Of a stretch of DNA of 42,977 nucleotides, positions 2,034 through 20,860 are shown in pieces. Positions within the stretch are counted from its first letter, which is position 1. Each line of letters starts with the position of its first letter. The notes under the pieces were generated by a model. The model was not told the origin of the DNA and made no database searches. It was given only the letters and a program-made list of their open reading frames with translations. The position numbers were made by a program, and so were the translations under genes. Source of the stretch: Candidatus Fimimorpha excrementavium (lineage in GTDB: Bacteria > Bacillota > Clostridia > Lachnospirales > Lachnospiraceae); the NCBI GenBank assembly GCA_018710785.1, contig DVJD01000016.1, positions 1 to 42,977 on the forward strand, in the 5' to 3' direction.

Positions 2034-2282
2034 TCATGTATTTGTGTCATGTGAGGAATGGATCGGTCTGGGACGAATCTTTTCCACGACTCCTTTGCCC
2101 AGAATCGCCGTCAAAAGCGTGACATATTCTTTCAGGGAAAGCCTTCCGTCCGGTGTAATCAGTTCAAAATCGGTACCATATACATTGACAAATAATCCGG
2201 TTTCCTTCAGTCCGTTTCTCAGATAAAAGTGTTTTCTTCTCTTCCGTTCTGCAGCGTTTGGCGCATCGGGATCTTCCTTCAC
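2034..2282 (-). pseudogene. 5'-truncated GNAT acetyltransferase remnant
   Basis: The 82 codons match the second half of a GNAT N-acetyltransferase. DPDAPNAAERKRRKHFYLRNG corresponds to the family's central EDP...RRxxFYxRNG segment, and FELITPDGRLSLKEY to its C-terminal strand. The first ~90 residues, including the acetyl-CoA-binding loop, are absent. The reading frame begins 15 bases after the stop of the next GNAT gene, with a fortuitous methionine and no good ribosome binding site. It is most likely a deletion remnant and non-functional. Confidence 0.6.
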
Positions 2283-2296
2283 GATTTCCCGTTTTC

Positions 2297-2845
2297 CTAC
2301 AGAACCTTTCCCATCAAAATCGCATCATACCGGCTGCCGTTTTTCAGGCGAAATGCATTGGGGATACGTCCCCATTCTTCAAAACCGGCCTTTCTGTACA
2401 GGGCCCTCGCGCTTTTGTTGTCGGAGAACACATCCAGCTCCAGCTGATCATAGCCCATCCCCCTGGCTTCTTCCGTTATGGCATCCAAAAGAATCCATCC
2501 GATTCCCCTTCCCCAGTATTTTTTCTTTACAGATACACCGAAAACAGCCCGGTGTCTTACTTTCTTACACGTACCCACACAGGAGATTCCGGCATTTCCC
2601 ACCAGTTCCTCTCCGATAAATGCGGCAATCAACAAATCGGTCTCACTGTTCAGGGATTCCTCCAGATACTGCTCCTCTTCTTCCCGGGTTCTCATGATCT
2701 CGTCCGGATAGCGAAGCATATGATGGGTTTCTTCCGACGTAATCCGCATATGCTCTAAAATCTGGCCTGCATCCTTTTTCTGAGGACTGCAGATTCTGCA
2801 AACTGTTCCATCTTTTAAAGTAACTGTTTTTTCCTGATAGTTCAT
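2297..2845 (-). CDS. GNAT family N-acetyltransferase
   Basis: A 182-residue complete GNAT protein. The acetyl-CoA pyrophosphate loop is VSVKKKYWGRGIGWILLD (Q/RxxGxG/A type, about residues 108-125), followed by LELDVFSDNKSARALYRKAGFEEWGR, the typical motif B. It resembles RimL/RimJ-like or small-molecule acetyltransferases; the substrate cannot be told. Initiation at 2845 has only a weak GGGG-type site 10 bases upstream. The gene is bounded by a truncated GNAT remnant downstream and by the CDF transporter gene upstream. Confidence 0.85.
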   Translation of the reverse strand: MNYQEKTVTLKDGTVCRICSPQKKDAGQILEHMRITSEETHHMLRYPDEIMRTREEEEQYLEESLNSETDLLIAAFIGEELVGNAGISCVGTCKKVRHRAVFGVSVKKKYWGRGIGWILLDAITEEARGMGYDQLELDVFSDNKSARALYRKAGFEEWGRIPNAFRLKNGSRYDAILMGKVL

Positions 2846-2918: not shown

Positions 2919-3845
2919 TTAGATTGGATTGACATGCACCATACAATGTTTCACCAGAGGAAATTCACCCTCGATTTTATCATGGACATTCTGGGCGATC
3001 TGATGGGCTTCCCAAAGAGAGAGCCTGCCATCCGCAGCAATCTCAATATCCACATATACCCTGGCTCCAAACAGTCTTGTATGAATCATATCGATCTGTT
3101 TCACGCCGTCCAGTTCTCCTATTACTCGTCTCATCCGTATTACCGTCTCATCATCGCAGGACCGGTCCACCATTTTGTCTACAGCATCCTTAAAAATATC
3201 ATAGGATGCTTTTACTATAAAGAAACTGATCACCAGACCTGCGGCCGGATCCAAAATCGGAACCCCCATCCGCGCTCCCAAAATGCCGATAAATGCTCCG
3301 ATGGAAGACAGCGAATCCGATCTGTGATGCCATGCATCCGCCATCAAAACGCCGGAATGAATCCTTCTTGCTGCTGCCCTTGTATACCAGTACATCCATT
3401 CTTTGACCAAAATGGACACAACTGCTGCGATCAGCGCAATCCTCTGTGGGATCTCCTTATCAGCCTGTGTATCCGACATTATTTTTTCCACGCTGCCGAT
3501 ACCGATTCCGGTTCCGATGACGGTCAAAAAGGCTGCCAGGAGAATGGCTGCCACGCATTCCATCCTCTCATGGCCATATGGATGATGCGGGTCGGATTTT
3601 TTTTCGGACAGTTTCACCCCAGCGATCACAACCAGGGTACTGAGTACGTCGGATGCGGAATGAACCGCATCGGAAAGCATGGCTCCGGAATGGCCGATGA
3701 TGCCTGCCAGTAATTTGAGCAGAGACAAACCCAGATTAACTCCGATGCTCACAGAAGAAACCCGCATCGCCGTTTTCCCGTCCGTCTCTTTCCTTTTTTG
3801 TCTCTCCCCTGCCTGCGTTCTCTTTCCAGCCTTCCAATGTTTCAT
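2919..3845 (-). CDS. Cation diffusion facilitator (CDF) metal exporter
   Basis: A 308-residue membrane exporter of divalent metals (Zn2+, Mn2+, Co2+, Fe2+ or Ni2+; specificity not readable). It has six predicted membrane segments and a C-terminal cytoplasmic domain (from about residue 220) typical of CDF dimerisation. The transport-site motifs are SDAVHSASD at about 58-66 and ADAWHHRSD at about 168-177. The ATG at 3845 follows AAAGGAGGCAAA. The start codon overlaps the stop of a 27-codon upstream frame (ATGA), suggesting coupled translation and possible leader control. Confidence 0.92.
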   Translation of the reverse strand: MKHWKAGKRTQAGERQKRKETDGKTAMRVSSVSIGVNLGLSLLKLLAGIIGHSGAMLSDAVHSASDVLSTLVVIAGVKLSEKKSDPHHPYGHERMECVAAILLAAFLTVIGTGIGIGSVEKIMSDTQADKEIPQRIALIAAVVSILVKEWMYWYTRAAARRIHSGVLMADAWHHRSDSLSSIGAFIGILGARMGVPILDPAAGLVISFFIVKASYDIFKDAVDKMVDRSCDDETVIRMRRVIGELDGVKQIDMIHTRLFGARVYVDIEIAADGRLSLWEAHQIAQNVHDKIEGEFPLVKHCMVHVNPI

Positions 3846-16552: not shown

Positions 16553-17599
16553 ATGAAACAAAACATCACAAAACGAATGGCGCTCGTCATTGCCGCTGCA
16601 GCGGCAATCTCACTGGCAGGATGTGCGTCCGCTGAACCTTCCGTTCAGACCACAGCCGCAGCTTCTTCTGACGCGGAAGTATCGACCCCTTCTGAATCGG
16701 TCTCTTCGGCAGAAAATGATTCGGTCTTCCCCTTCACCCTCGTGACCCAGGATGAGGAAGAAGTCACATTCACCCATGTCCCGGAGCGTATTCTCAGTAC
16801 GAACCCCAACACCGGTGAACAGCTCATGGCGCTGGGCCTGGGCGATAAGATCATCGCCACCTGTTACAATAACGCAAAACTTCCGCAGCAGTGGGCCGCC
16901 GAATATGAATCCAAGCCCGTCATCGCAGAAAAATATCCGTCTCTGGAGACGGTACTGGATCTGAATCCGGACTTCATCTATGGAAGAAGTTCTGCCTTTG
17001 GCGATCGTGACAGCAGTATCGCCACCCATACCAAACTTCAGGAGAATGGAATCATGTCCCTGGCATCCATCGAAGGCTATAAGACCGGATGTGATGTGGA
17101 AGATGTCTATCAGGATTTCTATAATCTGGGAAAAATTTTCCAGGTGGAGGACCGGGCCAACGAGATCGTAGACGGTATGAAGGAAAAAATCGCTTCCGTG
17201 GAGGAAAAGGTAAGCGGCCTTGAAGAAGTCAGCGTCTTCAATTTTGATTCGGAACGGGACGGCGGCGCTTACACCCCCGGAAATAATTTCACTTCCAAAC
17301 TGATCCGCCATGCAGGGGGCGTCAATATCTTTGAAGATCTGGAAAAAACATGGAATACCGTGAGCTGGGAAGCTGTCGTAGAAGCCAATCCCGATATCAT
17401 CGTCATCAATGACTACGGCGATACAACTGCCCAGGAAAAAATCGACTATCTGAAAACGAACGAAGCCCTGGCAGGCGTAAGCGCCGTCCAAAATGAAAAT
17501 TTCCTGGTAATCACTCTCCCGGAAGTTTTCGCCAGCACCAGAGTCGCCGATACCATTGAAAAATTTGCAGAGGCCTTCCATCCGGAAGCGTTTGAATAA
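16553..17599 (+). CDS. btuF: ABC transporter substrate-binding lipoprotein (cobalamin type)
   Basis: 348 residues. A lipoprotein signal ends at LAGC (Cys24 lipidated), followed by an Ser/Ala-rich linker and a class III binding-protein fold of the BtuF/FecB/FhuD group (PERILSTNPNTGEQLMALGLGDKI, LNPDFIYGR, NPDIIVINDYG). It captures the substrate outside the membrane for the permease encoded next. The fold alone cannot separate cobalamin from iron-siderophore uptake; the riboswitch upstream favours cobalamin or a corrinoid precursor. The start follows AAGGAGAAAAAGAC. Confidence 0.85.
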   Translation: MKQNITKRMALVIAAAAAISLAGCASAEPSVQTTAAASSDAEVSTPSESVSSAENDSVFPFTLVTQDEEEVTFTHVPERILSTNPNTGEQLMALGLGDKIIATCYNNAKLPQQWAAEYESKPVIAEKYPSLETVLDLNPDFIYGRSSAFGDRDSSIATHTKLQENGIMSLASIEGYKTGCDVEDVYQDFYNLGKIFQVEDRANEIVDGMKEKIASVEEKVSGLEEVSVFNFDSERDGGAYTPGNNFTSKLIRHAGGVNIFEDLEKTWNTVSWEAVVEANPDIIVINDYGDTTAQEKIDYLKTNEALAGVSAVQNENFLVITLPEVFASTRVADTIEKFAEAFHPEAFE

Positions 17600-17604
17600 T
17601 TGCT

Positions 17605-18666
17605 ATGAAAACAGTGTTTCGTCTGATACGTGAACATACGTTTCTCTCCTGTATGATTCTGGCGGGACTCCTGCTTCTCTCAGTCATAGCAGCCATCGGC
17701 ATCGGCCCGGTGGAAATCCCGTTTGCCACCGTCTGGAGAGTCATGTTCTATCATTTGTTCGGAGCGGGGGATATCTCAGATATCCCCGCCAACACCCAAA
17801 ATATTGTATGGCATCTGCGGGCTCCCAGAGTCCTTCTGGGGGGGATGATCGGTATTTCCCTCACTCTCTCCGGCATCGCCATGCAGTCATTTACCAAAAA
17901 CCCTCTGGCCAGCCCCTATGTTCTTGGAATTTCCTCCGGAGCCTCCTTCGGGGCCGTACTAGCCATAACCACAGGATTTCTTTCCTTCCTTGGTTCTTAT
18001 GCTCTGGAACTGGGTGCGTTTATCGGTTCCATGGCATCTATTCTGATCGTATACGGTATGGCAAAGAGCGGCAATGATATCGCTCCCATTAAACTGGTTT
18101 TGGTGGGAATGGCGGTCTCGGCGCTGTTTACCGCTTTTTCCAATTTTCTCGTATACAAAGCGCCTGCCGAAAGCCAGGTAAAAGAAGTCACCTTCTGGAT
18201 GCTGGGAAGCATCGCCAGCGCGGAGTGGAGTGATCTGCTGCCCATCGCTTTGGTTCTTATTCCCGGCATCCCATTGATGTATGCCATGTCCCATTCCCTC
18301 AATGCTCTTTTGATGGGGGACAGCAGTGCTGTGACACTGGGCGTCAATGTCAATCTGGTTCGGAAAATCACCGTTTTTTTATCTGCTCTGATGACGGGAG
18401 TGGCCGTATCCGCCTCCGGGTGCATTGGATTCGTCGGTCTGGTGATTCCGCACATCGTACGCGCCGCGGTGGGAGCCGATCATAAAAAAGTCATCCCGAT
18501 TGCTTCTTTTGCAGGCGCCATCTTTCTCATATGGGTGGATGTGGGAGCCCGCATGTTTGACATTCCCAGTGAAATCCCCATCGGCATCATCACTTCCATG
18601 TTGGGCGCCCCCATTTTTCTGTGGATGATAAAAGTCAGAAAATATTCCTTCGGCAGCCAATCATAA
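17605..18666 (+). CDS. btuC: FecCD/BtuC-type ABC transporter permease
   Basis: 353 residues with the roughly ten membrane helices of the FecCD family. Typical landmarks are RAPRVLLGGMIGISLTLSG, LASPYVLGISSGASFGAVLAI and SASGCIGFVGLVIPHIVRAAVGADHK, the last being the loop that docks the ATPase. It is five bases from the binding-protein stop with no strong ribosome binding site, so it is likely coupled. Together with its neighbours it forms a complete importer. Confidence 0.9.
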   Translation: MKTVFRLIREHTFLSCMILAGLLLLSVIAAIGIGPVEIPFATVWRVMFYHLFGAGDISDIPANTQNIVWHLRAPRVLLGGMIGISLTLSGIAMQSFTKNPLASPYVLGISSGASFGAVLAITTGFLSFLGSYALELGAFIGSMASILIVYGMAKSGNDIAPIKLVLVGMAVSALFTAFSNFLVYKAPAESQVKEVTFWMLGSIASAEWSDLLPIALVLIPGIPLMYAMSHSLNALLMGDSSAVTLGVNVNLVRKITVFLSALMTGVAVSASGCIGFVGLVIPHIVRAAVGADHKKVIPIASFAGAIFLIWVDVGARMFDIPSEIPIGIITSMLGAPIFLWMIKVRKYSFGSQS

Positions 18667-18723
18667 ATGGCCAAACACGGAAATGGAATGAAAAAATGGA
18701 ACGCTTGCAGAAATGGAGGACGT

Positions 18724-19473
18724 ATGCTGGAAGTAAAAAATGTCAGTTATAAAATAGGCAAAAAACAGATCATAAATGACGTTTCCCTGCTGGTAAAGGA
18801 TCATGAATTTGTTGGGATCATCGGCCCAAACGGCAGCGGAAAATCCACACTTTTAAAAACCATCTATAAAATGCTCCCTCCTTCTTCGGGAGACATTCTG
18901 TTCAATGGGCAGTCCCTTCTGAACATGAAAAATAAAACCATGGCCCGGTCCCTCGCCGTGGTGGCCCAGGAAAACGGCGCAAATTTTGATTTTCTGGTGG
19001 AAGAGGTCATTCAGATGGGCCGTTATCCGCAGAAAAAAATGCTGGAAAATGCCAATGACACCGATAAAGCAATCGTGCTCCATTCCCTTCGCATGGTGGG
19101 AATGGAGCACGTTCTGGGACGCAGTTTCCTCAGCCTGTCCGGCGGAGAAAAGCAGCGGATTTTCATCGCCCGGGCCCTGGCGCAGCAGACCGATATGATT
19201 CTATTGGACGAACCGACCAATCACCTTGATATCGGTTCCCAAATGAAGACACTGCAGTTATTAAAGCAGTCAAAAAAAACCATACTGACCGCTTTGCACG
19301 ATCTTGGTTTGGCCGCCCGCTTCTGTGACAGAATCTATGTGATGTATCAAGGTCGCATTTATGCCCAGGGAACCCCCAGAGAGGTTATCACCCCCGAGCT
19401 GGTGCGGACCCTCTATCATCTGGATGCAGAAATCTTTGACCGGGGGGGAAATCTCTGCATCGATTATCTATAA
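18724..19473 (+). CDS. btuD: ABC transporter ATP-binding protein (BtuD/FecE type)
   Basis: 249 residues. Walker A GPNGSGKST at 34-42, signature LSGGEKQR, Walker B MILLDEP and the switch histidine in LTALHDLGLA are all intact. It powers uptake through the adjacent permease. The ATG at 18724 is chosen because GGAGGACGT precedes it; the 19 extra residues from 18667 are unlike the family. It is the last gene of the operon. No clear terminator separates it from the convergent pdxS-pdxT gene 15 bases away. Confidence 0.92.
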   Translation: MLEVKNVSYKIGKKQIINDVSLLVKDHEFVGIIGPNGSGKSTLLKTIYKMLPPSSGDILFNGQSLLNMKNKTMARSLAVVAQENGANFDFLVEEVIQMGRYPQKKMLENANDTDKAIVLHSLRMVGMEHVLGRSFLSLSGGEKQRIFIARALAQQTDMILLDEPTNHLDIGSQMKTLQLLKQSKKTILTALHDLGLAARFCDRIYVMYQGRIYAQGTPREVITPELVRTLYHLDAEIFDRGGNLCIDYL

Positions 19474-19488: not shown

Positions 19489-20673
19489 CTAAGCGCTCTC
19501 TGCGATGCCGCGCAGCCAATACTCATATACCCGATTATCCTCTGTCAATTCCGGATGGAATGCCATCGCCAGCTGATTTTGATATCTCACTGCCGTGATT
19601 CGGCCGCCTGTCTCTGCCAAAATCTCCACTTGCCCGGCAGCGGATTCCACATAGGGCGCCCGGATAAACACCATTGGAATGGTTCCGATTCCTTTCATAT
19701 TGCCATCTGTCTCAAAGCTGCCCAGCTGCCTTCCATAGGCATTTCTGCGCACGCATATGGGCATAGTGGTAAAATGGGGCGTTTCCCCGTCGGTCAGCTT
19801 CTCTGCCAGAAGAATCATTCCCGCACAGGTGGCCAGAACCGGAAGACCTCCCTCAATTTTTTCTTTCAGAGGAAAAAACAAATCCAGTTCCCGCAGCAAT
19901 TTTCCCATGGCGGTACTCTCCCCTCCGGGGAGTACCAGGCCGTCCATGGACTGCGTTTTCAGATCTTCTCGCTTTCTTATCTCAAAGGTTTCCGCACCCA
20001 GCTGCATCATAAGAGCCGCATCCGCCGGAGTGGCGATTCCCCCGGCAGCAAAATTCACCACTGGAAGCCGTCCGTTATCATGGACATTCTTCACCAGTTC
20101 AAAAGGAACCTGAAACTCCTTGGCAGCCTCGTACAGCTCATCTTCCCGCATGGCACAAATGGACGCAATCTGCCGGTTCATCATCCGCATATGGCGAACT
20201 GCCTGTACCACATCCCCGGTTCCCGGCTCTCCCTTTGTGCGGATCATGGACGCCCCTTCCTGGATTCTTCGAAGGGCCTCCCCCAGATCTCGCGCTCCGC
20301 ATACAAAGGGCACCCGAAACGTTCTCTTATCAATATGATAAACATCATCCGCCGGAGACAGTACCTCACTCTCGTCGATGTAGTCAATCTCGATGGCCTC
20401 CAAAATCTGTGCCTCCACAAAATGGCCGATTCGGCATTTTGCCATGACAGGTATGGACACTGCATTCTGGATTTCCTGAATCATTTTGGGATCACTCATC
20501 CTGGAAACCCCGCCGACCGCACGGATATCCGCAGGGATACGCTCCAGCGCCATCACGGCACATGCCCCTGTTTCCTGGGCGATCTGCGCCTGCTGCGGCG
20601 TCGTCACGTCCATGATGACACCGCCCTTTAACATCTGCGCCAATTCTTTATTTAATTCATAACGATTGTCCAT
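19489..20673 (-). CDS. PdxS-PdxT chimera (PLP synthase), internally deleted
   Basis: A 394-residue frame. Residues 1-226 are PdxS: D22, K79 (VMAKC) and K147 ([10 protein letters not shown]) are the substrate aspartate and Schiff-base lysines. Residues from about 227 are Pdx[10 protein letters not shown], nucleophile C283 in ATCAGM, and H373-E375 in FHPEL. At [15 protein letters not shown] the PdxS sequence stops just where GSGIF and the last barrel strands should follow. The PdxT sequence joins where its first ~23 residues (LQG motif) are missing. Separate proteins would total about 480. LGA occurs at that point in both families, suggesting recombination at short homology. All named catalytic residues remain, but the PdxS phosphate site is lost. 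The start at 20673 follows GGAGGAAGAGAAA. Confidence 0.85.
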
Positions 20674-20860
20674 TTTCTCTTCCTCCAATCCAATACAGTC
20701 ACAATTGTCCGAGCACTGCTCCCCCTTATGCAGCGCCTTATCTTTTCTGAAACGTTTCATGGTAATTATCCTATGCGCAAACTGTCATGAAATAAATATC
20801 CAATTTTCACTTTTTTAAAGGGCCAGTTCTGACAAAATAAGTATTTCGGAAACTCTTATC

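Follow-up and report, generated by a model that had tools for sequence, protein, structure and literature searches.

The 42,977-nucleotide stretch of Candidatus Fimimorpha excrementavium DNA analysed here (the window) corresponds to contig 105 of a 3.10 Mb assembly that comprises 127 contigs and is 98.33% complete. On its minus strand, positions 19489-20673 hold a single open frame, which begins with the ATG at 20673 and encodes 394 amino acids followed by a stop codon, with no internal stop. The first part of this frame (19990-20673, minus strand; residues 1-228, from the ATG to MQLGAE) is a PdxS without the last barrel strand (GVFVGSGIF) and all that lies beyond it, and the second (19489-19989, minus strand; residues 229-394 and the stop codon) is a PdxT without its first ~25 residues, that is, without strand 1 and its LQG motif. 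Both parts meet at 19978-20001 of the same strand, where the LGAE codons CTG GGT GCG GAA (19990-20001) run into the PdxT codons for TFEI (19978-19989), and where we place the proposed direct-repeat deletion. An in-frame extension of 29 codons (20674-20760, minus strand) starts at a further ATG at 20760 and would lengthen the product to 423 amino acids, yet it is probably untranslated, since GGAGGAAGAGAAA precedes the ATG at 20673. The neighbouring positions 16553-19473 hold a FecCD-type ABC importer operon (binding protein, permease, ATPase), for which the best NCBIfam matches, all below their cut-offs, are putative F420-0, corrinoid, heme and siderophore transporters.

Profile searches recognised both halves of the frame. 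Pfam SOR_SNZ (PdxS) matched residues 6-210 (E 5.8e-108) and SNO (PdxT) residues 225-390 (E 2.6e-43). Among the NCBIfam models, PRK04180 (PdxS) covers residues 4-229, while NF003215 (PdxS) scored 416.2 bits, above its cut-off of 395, and TIGR00343 (PdxS) 407.7 bits, below its cut-off of 438.45, with both matches ending at residue 229. For the PdxT half, TIGR03800 spans residues 220-387 with 187.9 bits against a cut-off of 105.55, and PRK13526, another PdxT model, remained below its cut-off. The frame and the Pfam and NCBIfam matches to both families thus confirm the original prediction of an in-frame PdxS-PdxT chimera of 394 residues.

The extent of the loss was measured in 108 loci carrying both genes (107 distinct, L016 being identical to L117), which remained from 116 loci after leaving out the chimera itself (L001), three duplicates (L002, L006 and L007), a damaged locus of genome G106 (L122) and three loci with one gene only (L004, L005 and L057). 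These loci were picked for resembling the query, a choice that inflates conservation, and intactness is not confirmed for each of them; for instance, the end of pdxT in L043 changes after FHPELTDD. A median of 62 PdxS residues is missing after codon 228 (108 of 108 loci) and a median of 25 PdxT residues before codon 229 (the 105 of 108 loci with a placeable PdxT start), in agreement with the predicted loss of about 90 residues around the joint. PdxS residue 228 is hence joined onto PdxT from about residue 26, and in the loci with both genes the median distance between the codons matching the two sides of the join is 265 bp.

Alignment A5 (26 rows) also bore out which motifs had been predicted to disappear and which to stay. 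GSGIF of PdxS and the strand-1 LQG/VQG of PdxT are missing from the chimera. Residues G235 and S236 of PdxS have a role in phosphate binding; all 22 of 22 full-length PdxS share G233, S234 and R288 (A3 numbering) without exception, and the chimera has lost all three. Still present are K79 and K147, the equivalents of B. subtilis K81 and K149, and the equivalents of the PdxT triad, C283, H373 and E375, all of them invariant in the alignment; these five residues we take to be the catalytic ones. Passages of PMC3024981 and PMC2266796 back part of these assignments (PdxS lysines and PdxT triad). As for the missing portion, the available text of PMC3024981 describes the C-terminal region of Pdx1 as essential for catalysis, with R288 needed for cooperativity and an R288A exchange lowering kcat/KM for the chromophoric intermediate 9-fold, and a part of PMC8313854 implicates the C-terminus and its preceding helix in assembly.

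The relatives do not share this arrangement. Whether they carry separate or identically fused genes was a check put forward with the original prediction, and it returned separate pdxS and pdxT in all 107 distinct two-gene loci and a fused pair in none. Among the seven other genomes of the genus, three (G001, G002 and G004) have both genes separately; the 99% complete G003 has neither, and nor have G005-G007, which are 67-89% complete. In G001, two contigs (C152 and C62; the ends of L004 and L005) stop at the pdxS stop and pdxT start, with ~18 bases in common. Within the family, 138 of 299 genomes (own genome included) were matched at E 0.001, many of them weakly and probably through other amidotransferases. 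Among the matches listed, 65 family genomes including our own have PdxS matched from close to its start as far as residue 229. A query of 67 residues across the join, searched in 392 genomes of the order (own included), matched 100 of them, with E 6.1e-40 in the own genome and 1.7e-15, through the PdxS part alone, in the best of the other 99; a different join, such as that of G295 described below, would escape this query. One of the matches listed, in G582, nominally covers query residues 5-67 (E 8.8e-11); as it sits within a PdxT frame of 204 codons and PdxS is matched separately close by, it was taken as a normal pair.

Full-length natural fusions were considered as well, as 15 genomes display ‘open frames’ of 479-530 amino acids, but a stop codon separates pdxS from pdxT in 15 of 15, and no full-length PdxS-PdxT fusion was found among the genomes examined. 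Such apparent frames can mimic fusions where two genes in the same frame are both matched and the frame is counted across the stop between them. Likewise, no natural fused PLP synthase appeared in titles and the openings of abstracts, a coverage in which subscription journals are mostly not represented, and the words ‘fusion’ and ‘fused’ are absent from the main text of PMC9997740. In three genomes (G040, G091 and G094; loci L163, L165 and L164) PdxS is nearly full-length and PdxT gave no match within the ~2-3 kb fetched on each side; these PdxS proteins, of which those of G091 and G094 are more diverged, possibly work alone. A search of the fetched pdxST loci of relatives, many of which have short flanks, for eight neighbours of the chimera (the FecCD-type ABC system, an M42 peptidase, GNAT, SDH_alpha and two more) found none of them next to pdxST and yielded weak cross-matches between ABC ATPases only.

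The sequences around the join point to the way in which it arose. At this position the aligned relatives read LGAE in PdxS and mostly L/I-G-A/V in PdxT, which agrees with the earlier observation that LGA occurs at the matching point of both parents. An exact repeat at the two matching sites is longest, at 13 bp, in L013 and L126, reaches at least 10 bp in 6 of the 108 loci and has a median of 5 bp, these being lengths in relatives and not in the parent of this strain. Furthermore, of 207 ten-base words common to pdxS and pdxT over the 108 gene pairs, 164 have the same codon register in both genes, where overlapping words of one longer match are counted separately. The 13-bp repeats and the shared register support the proposed origin by short-homology recombination. 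Since most shared words agree in register, joining the two genes at one of them will usually preserve the frame, which is no sign of selection. As a caution for similar cases, more than one in three short-repeat joins of pdxS and pdxT are expected to be in frame, and such a frame is no proof of selection.

Other damaged pdxST loci occur in the family. The genomes fetched were those that looked odd, and the lesions seen in six of them (G106, G090, G101, G093, G104 and G295) are examples rather than a rate. One of these comes from another genus: in G295 (L166, G295:C3:253000-258000; 2165-2380, minus strand), PdxS residues 5-39 are joined in frame to PdxT residues 154-188 over 70 codons, with no ATG start seen upstream in frame. 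This remnant is plainly dead. It resembles the chimera in its in-frame PdxS-PdxT join and differs in running from PdxS ~39 to PdxT ~154, and it represents a second natural case of an in-frame deletion product of the two genes. In G106 (L142, G106:C6:138000-144500), at ~3360-3420, PdxS 1-286 runs into PdxT 40-186 across a shared word of at most ~8 bp (judged by eye), a deletion that removes the last codons of pdxS, with that of the conserved C-terminal Arg among them, and the first ~39 of pdxT. In G090 (L144, G090:C33:2500-6000), at 1504-1948, PdxS 3-38 is followed by PdxT 71-188 in another frame. Both are like the chimera in that a deletion joined pdxS to pdxT, and unlike it in that the frame changes at the join. 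The remaining three, in contrast to the in-frame join, are truncations or frameshifts: G101 retains PdxS 138-290 and PdxT, in G093 the PdxT pieces are split between two frames and PdxS is missing, and G104 shows a frame break within PdxT. The locus of a further genome, G255, is cut by a contig end.

We regard it as probable that a single deletion of ~265 bp between short LGAE-encoding repeats created the chimera, that the event is recent and caused loss of function, and that the product is most likely no PLP synthase. In the proposed course of events, the lineage would have started from a normal adjacent pdxS-pdxT pair, each gene with a short direct repeat encoding LGAE or something near it. 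One deletion between the repeats, in the lineage of this genome, would have taken the intergenic region with it, and the frame would have been kept automatically, whatever the length of the deletion, as the shared codon register suggests. The product would most likely be unable to make PLP, leaving the cell to live on salvaged B6 through a pyridoxamine kinase, and the recent date of the event would explain a coding sequence without clear decay so far.

A different explanation, which we judge unlikely though the most serious of the rivals, is an artefact of assembly or library, in which the genes are intact and the contig was misjoined, or a rare chimeric read or minority variant entered the consensus. 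The draft state of the assembly, in 127 contigs, lends itself to such an error, and the contig break in G001 demonstrates that breaks do happen at this joint. However, searches of the rest of the assembly did not turn up the deleted parts. The genome holds a single match, the chimeric one, and one PF01680 match. Used as query, the C-terminal 76 residues of PdxS from a relative retrieved no PdxS end elsewhere and aligned through their first 15 residues, those running up to the join (E 0.142). A relative's full-length PdxT similarly retrieved no PdxT start elsewhere: it matched the chimera from query residue 17 and, weakly, a place on contig 101 (E 0.169). Moreover, the longest repeat in the 108 relatives, 13 bp, would be shorter than the usual assembly words, and independent genomes carry other pdxS-pdxT joins, out of frame in G106 and G090 and in frame in G295. 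A foreign contig was also considered and rejected: the window GC of 0.496 lies within the 0.452-0.510 of 18 sampled stretches of the genome, so that the contig does not look foreign, which likewise speaks against an artefact. A search of viral_contigs for the 30 bases of the junction gave no exact match, which says little. In sum, essential parts are gone from the chimera, full-length counterparts exist in relatives and none was found elsewhere in the genome, which together are the marks of a deletion pseudogene.

Predicted structures bear on whether the chimera could function. AlphaFold2 models were built on shallow alignments, of 26 rows for the chimera and 22 for a full-length relative as control, and both are of modest confidence. 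Mean pLDDT and pTM were 73.0 and 0.57 for the chimera and 76.8 and 0.78 for the control. Residues 210-228 of the chimera fall below a pLDDT of 50, and its model lacks the eighth barrel strand, the control strand E229-232 having no counterpart. In Foldseek comparisons with solved PdxS structures (best 50 rows each), the PdxS half of the chimera showed an rmsd of 4.7-8.3 Å, mostly ~5, and a TMt of 0.56-0.63, as against 1.8-2.7 Å and 0.86-0.94 for the full-length control. As modelled, the PdxS half is a distorted barrel. With the barrel open, part of the phosphate site and the C-terminal arginine tail gone, and strand 1 of PdxT gone as well, the product most likely does not synthesise PLP.

A working or re-purposed fusion, which would fold and retain part of its lyase, glutaminase or binding activity, possibly in oligomeric form, appears very improbable to us. 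It would be in keeping with the open frame and the retention of all catalytic residues, with constraint ratios within the range of other loci, and with a PdxT half that, from residue 231, was modelled with block means of pLDDT of 73-96, save 55 for residues 311-320. Yet the PdxS half has lost the last barrel strand, the phosphate loop and the C-terminal tail and is distorted in the model, the join was seen in one genome only, and frame retention is expected at such joins and is found even in the dead remnant of G295. The kept catalytic residues are no argument for activity either, because their survival is expected after a recent deletion, and recent origin alone explains the conservation. Specifically, we give very little credence to a single-chain chimera that folds with residual or altered activity in a strain past needing PLP synthesis, be it sugar-phosphate chemistry that depends on ammonium or glutamine, PLP binding or the like. 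The original prediction had left the choice between a changed activity and a dead gene, and of these the dead gene is by far the better supported, by the lost barrel strand, phosphate loop and C-terminal tail and by the distorted model, to the disadvantage of a changed activity.

The divergence of the locus was placed on a fixed tree of 109 loci, where loci with a third-position branch of at most 0.2 were dropped from the ratio ranks. The ratio of the position 1+2 to the position 3 terminal branch of the chimera ranks 24 of 103 for the PdxS part and 14 of 104 for the PdxT part, high and within the range of the others. The pattern fits a recent loss after ordinary divergence, and neither proves nor excludes function. 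The branch ratios do not support a long-standing pseudogene, even if the PdxS part has changed somewhat more than is usual. An older relic under relaxed constraint, its deletion long fixed across a clade, is scarcely credible to us: three changes of the PdxS part (E27Q, A35T and A53V) at columns conserved to at least 97%, besides the join (mean of the others 0.55), its mean identity, the 4th lowest of 110, one such change in the PdxT part (mean of the others 0.16) and position 1+2 branches that are the 16th (PdxS) and 10th (PdxT) longest of 109 point towards it, but there is no frameshift or stop, the branch ratios are not extreme, the genus-mates having the genes have them separate, and conservation is overstated in a set chosen for similarity to the query. 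The identity of the PdxT part is average (rank 56 of 110).

The vitamin B6 supply of the strain is compatible with the recent deletion that we favour. Its genome encodes a pyridoxamine kinase (NF005491, 247.7 bits, above the cut-off of 231) and also a ThiD-type kinase, and a search for PdxJ gave no match. With a pyridoxamine kinase found and PdxJ not found, salvage of B6 is likely. The accessible part of PMC6593275 reports, in a survey of human gut genomes, 862 with PdxS(T) and 711 with PdxJ, besides 541 in which PdxK-type salvage is the only route and 114 that have neither, and a passage of PMC7478625 divides Roseburia species into B6 synthesizers and salvagers. For a lineage of this kind, losing pdxST is nothing unusual. 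If real, the locus captures cleanly how a gut-type Lachnospiraceae lineage loses vitamin B6 synthesis. It further illustrates that an in-frame deletion product can pass curated cut-offs for both proteins, namely NF003215 for PdxS (TIGR00343 is not passed) and TIGR03800 for PdxT. Since PMC9997740, in a passage, took the presence of pdxS and pdxT as its criterion for an active pathway, genomes with such chimeras could be miscounted as B6 prototrophs.

Compared with known PLP synthases, both halves of the chimera are clear homologues of PdxS/Pdx1/SNZ (PF01680) and PdxT/Pdx2/SNO (PF01174), and they follow each other in the same order, pdxS and then pdxT, as in the relatives. There, however, the enzyme consists of two proteins in the 108 loci measured, whereas the chimera is one protein that is ~62 PdxS and ~25 PdxT residues short at the joint. 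PdxS is able to use ammonium without PdxT, as described in passages of PMC2266796 (for PfPdx1 alone) and PMC3024981, and suppressors of a B. subtilis pdxT deletion, cited in the available text of PMC9997740, likewise have a PdxS that works on ammonium without PdxT. In these systems the loss of PdxT function alone is thus tolerable, whereas in the chimera PdxS itself is truncated. Because the cut lies inside the barrel, the ammonium escape that serves PfPdx1 and the B. subtilis suppressors would be closed to it.
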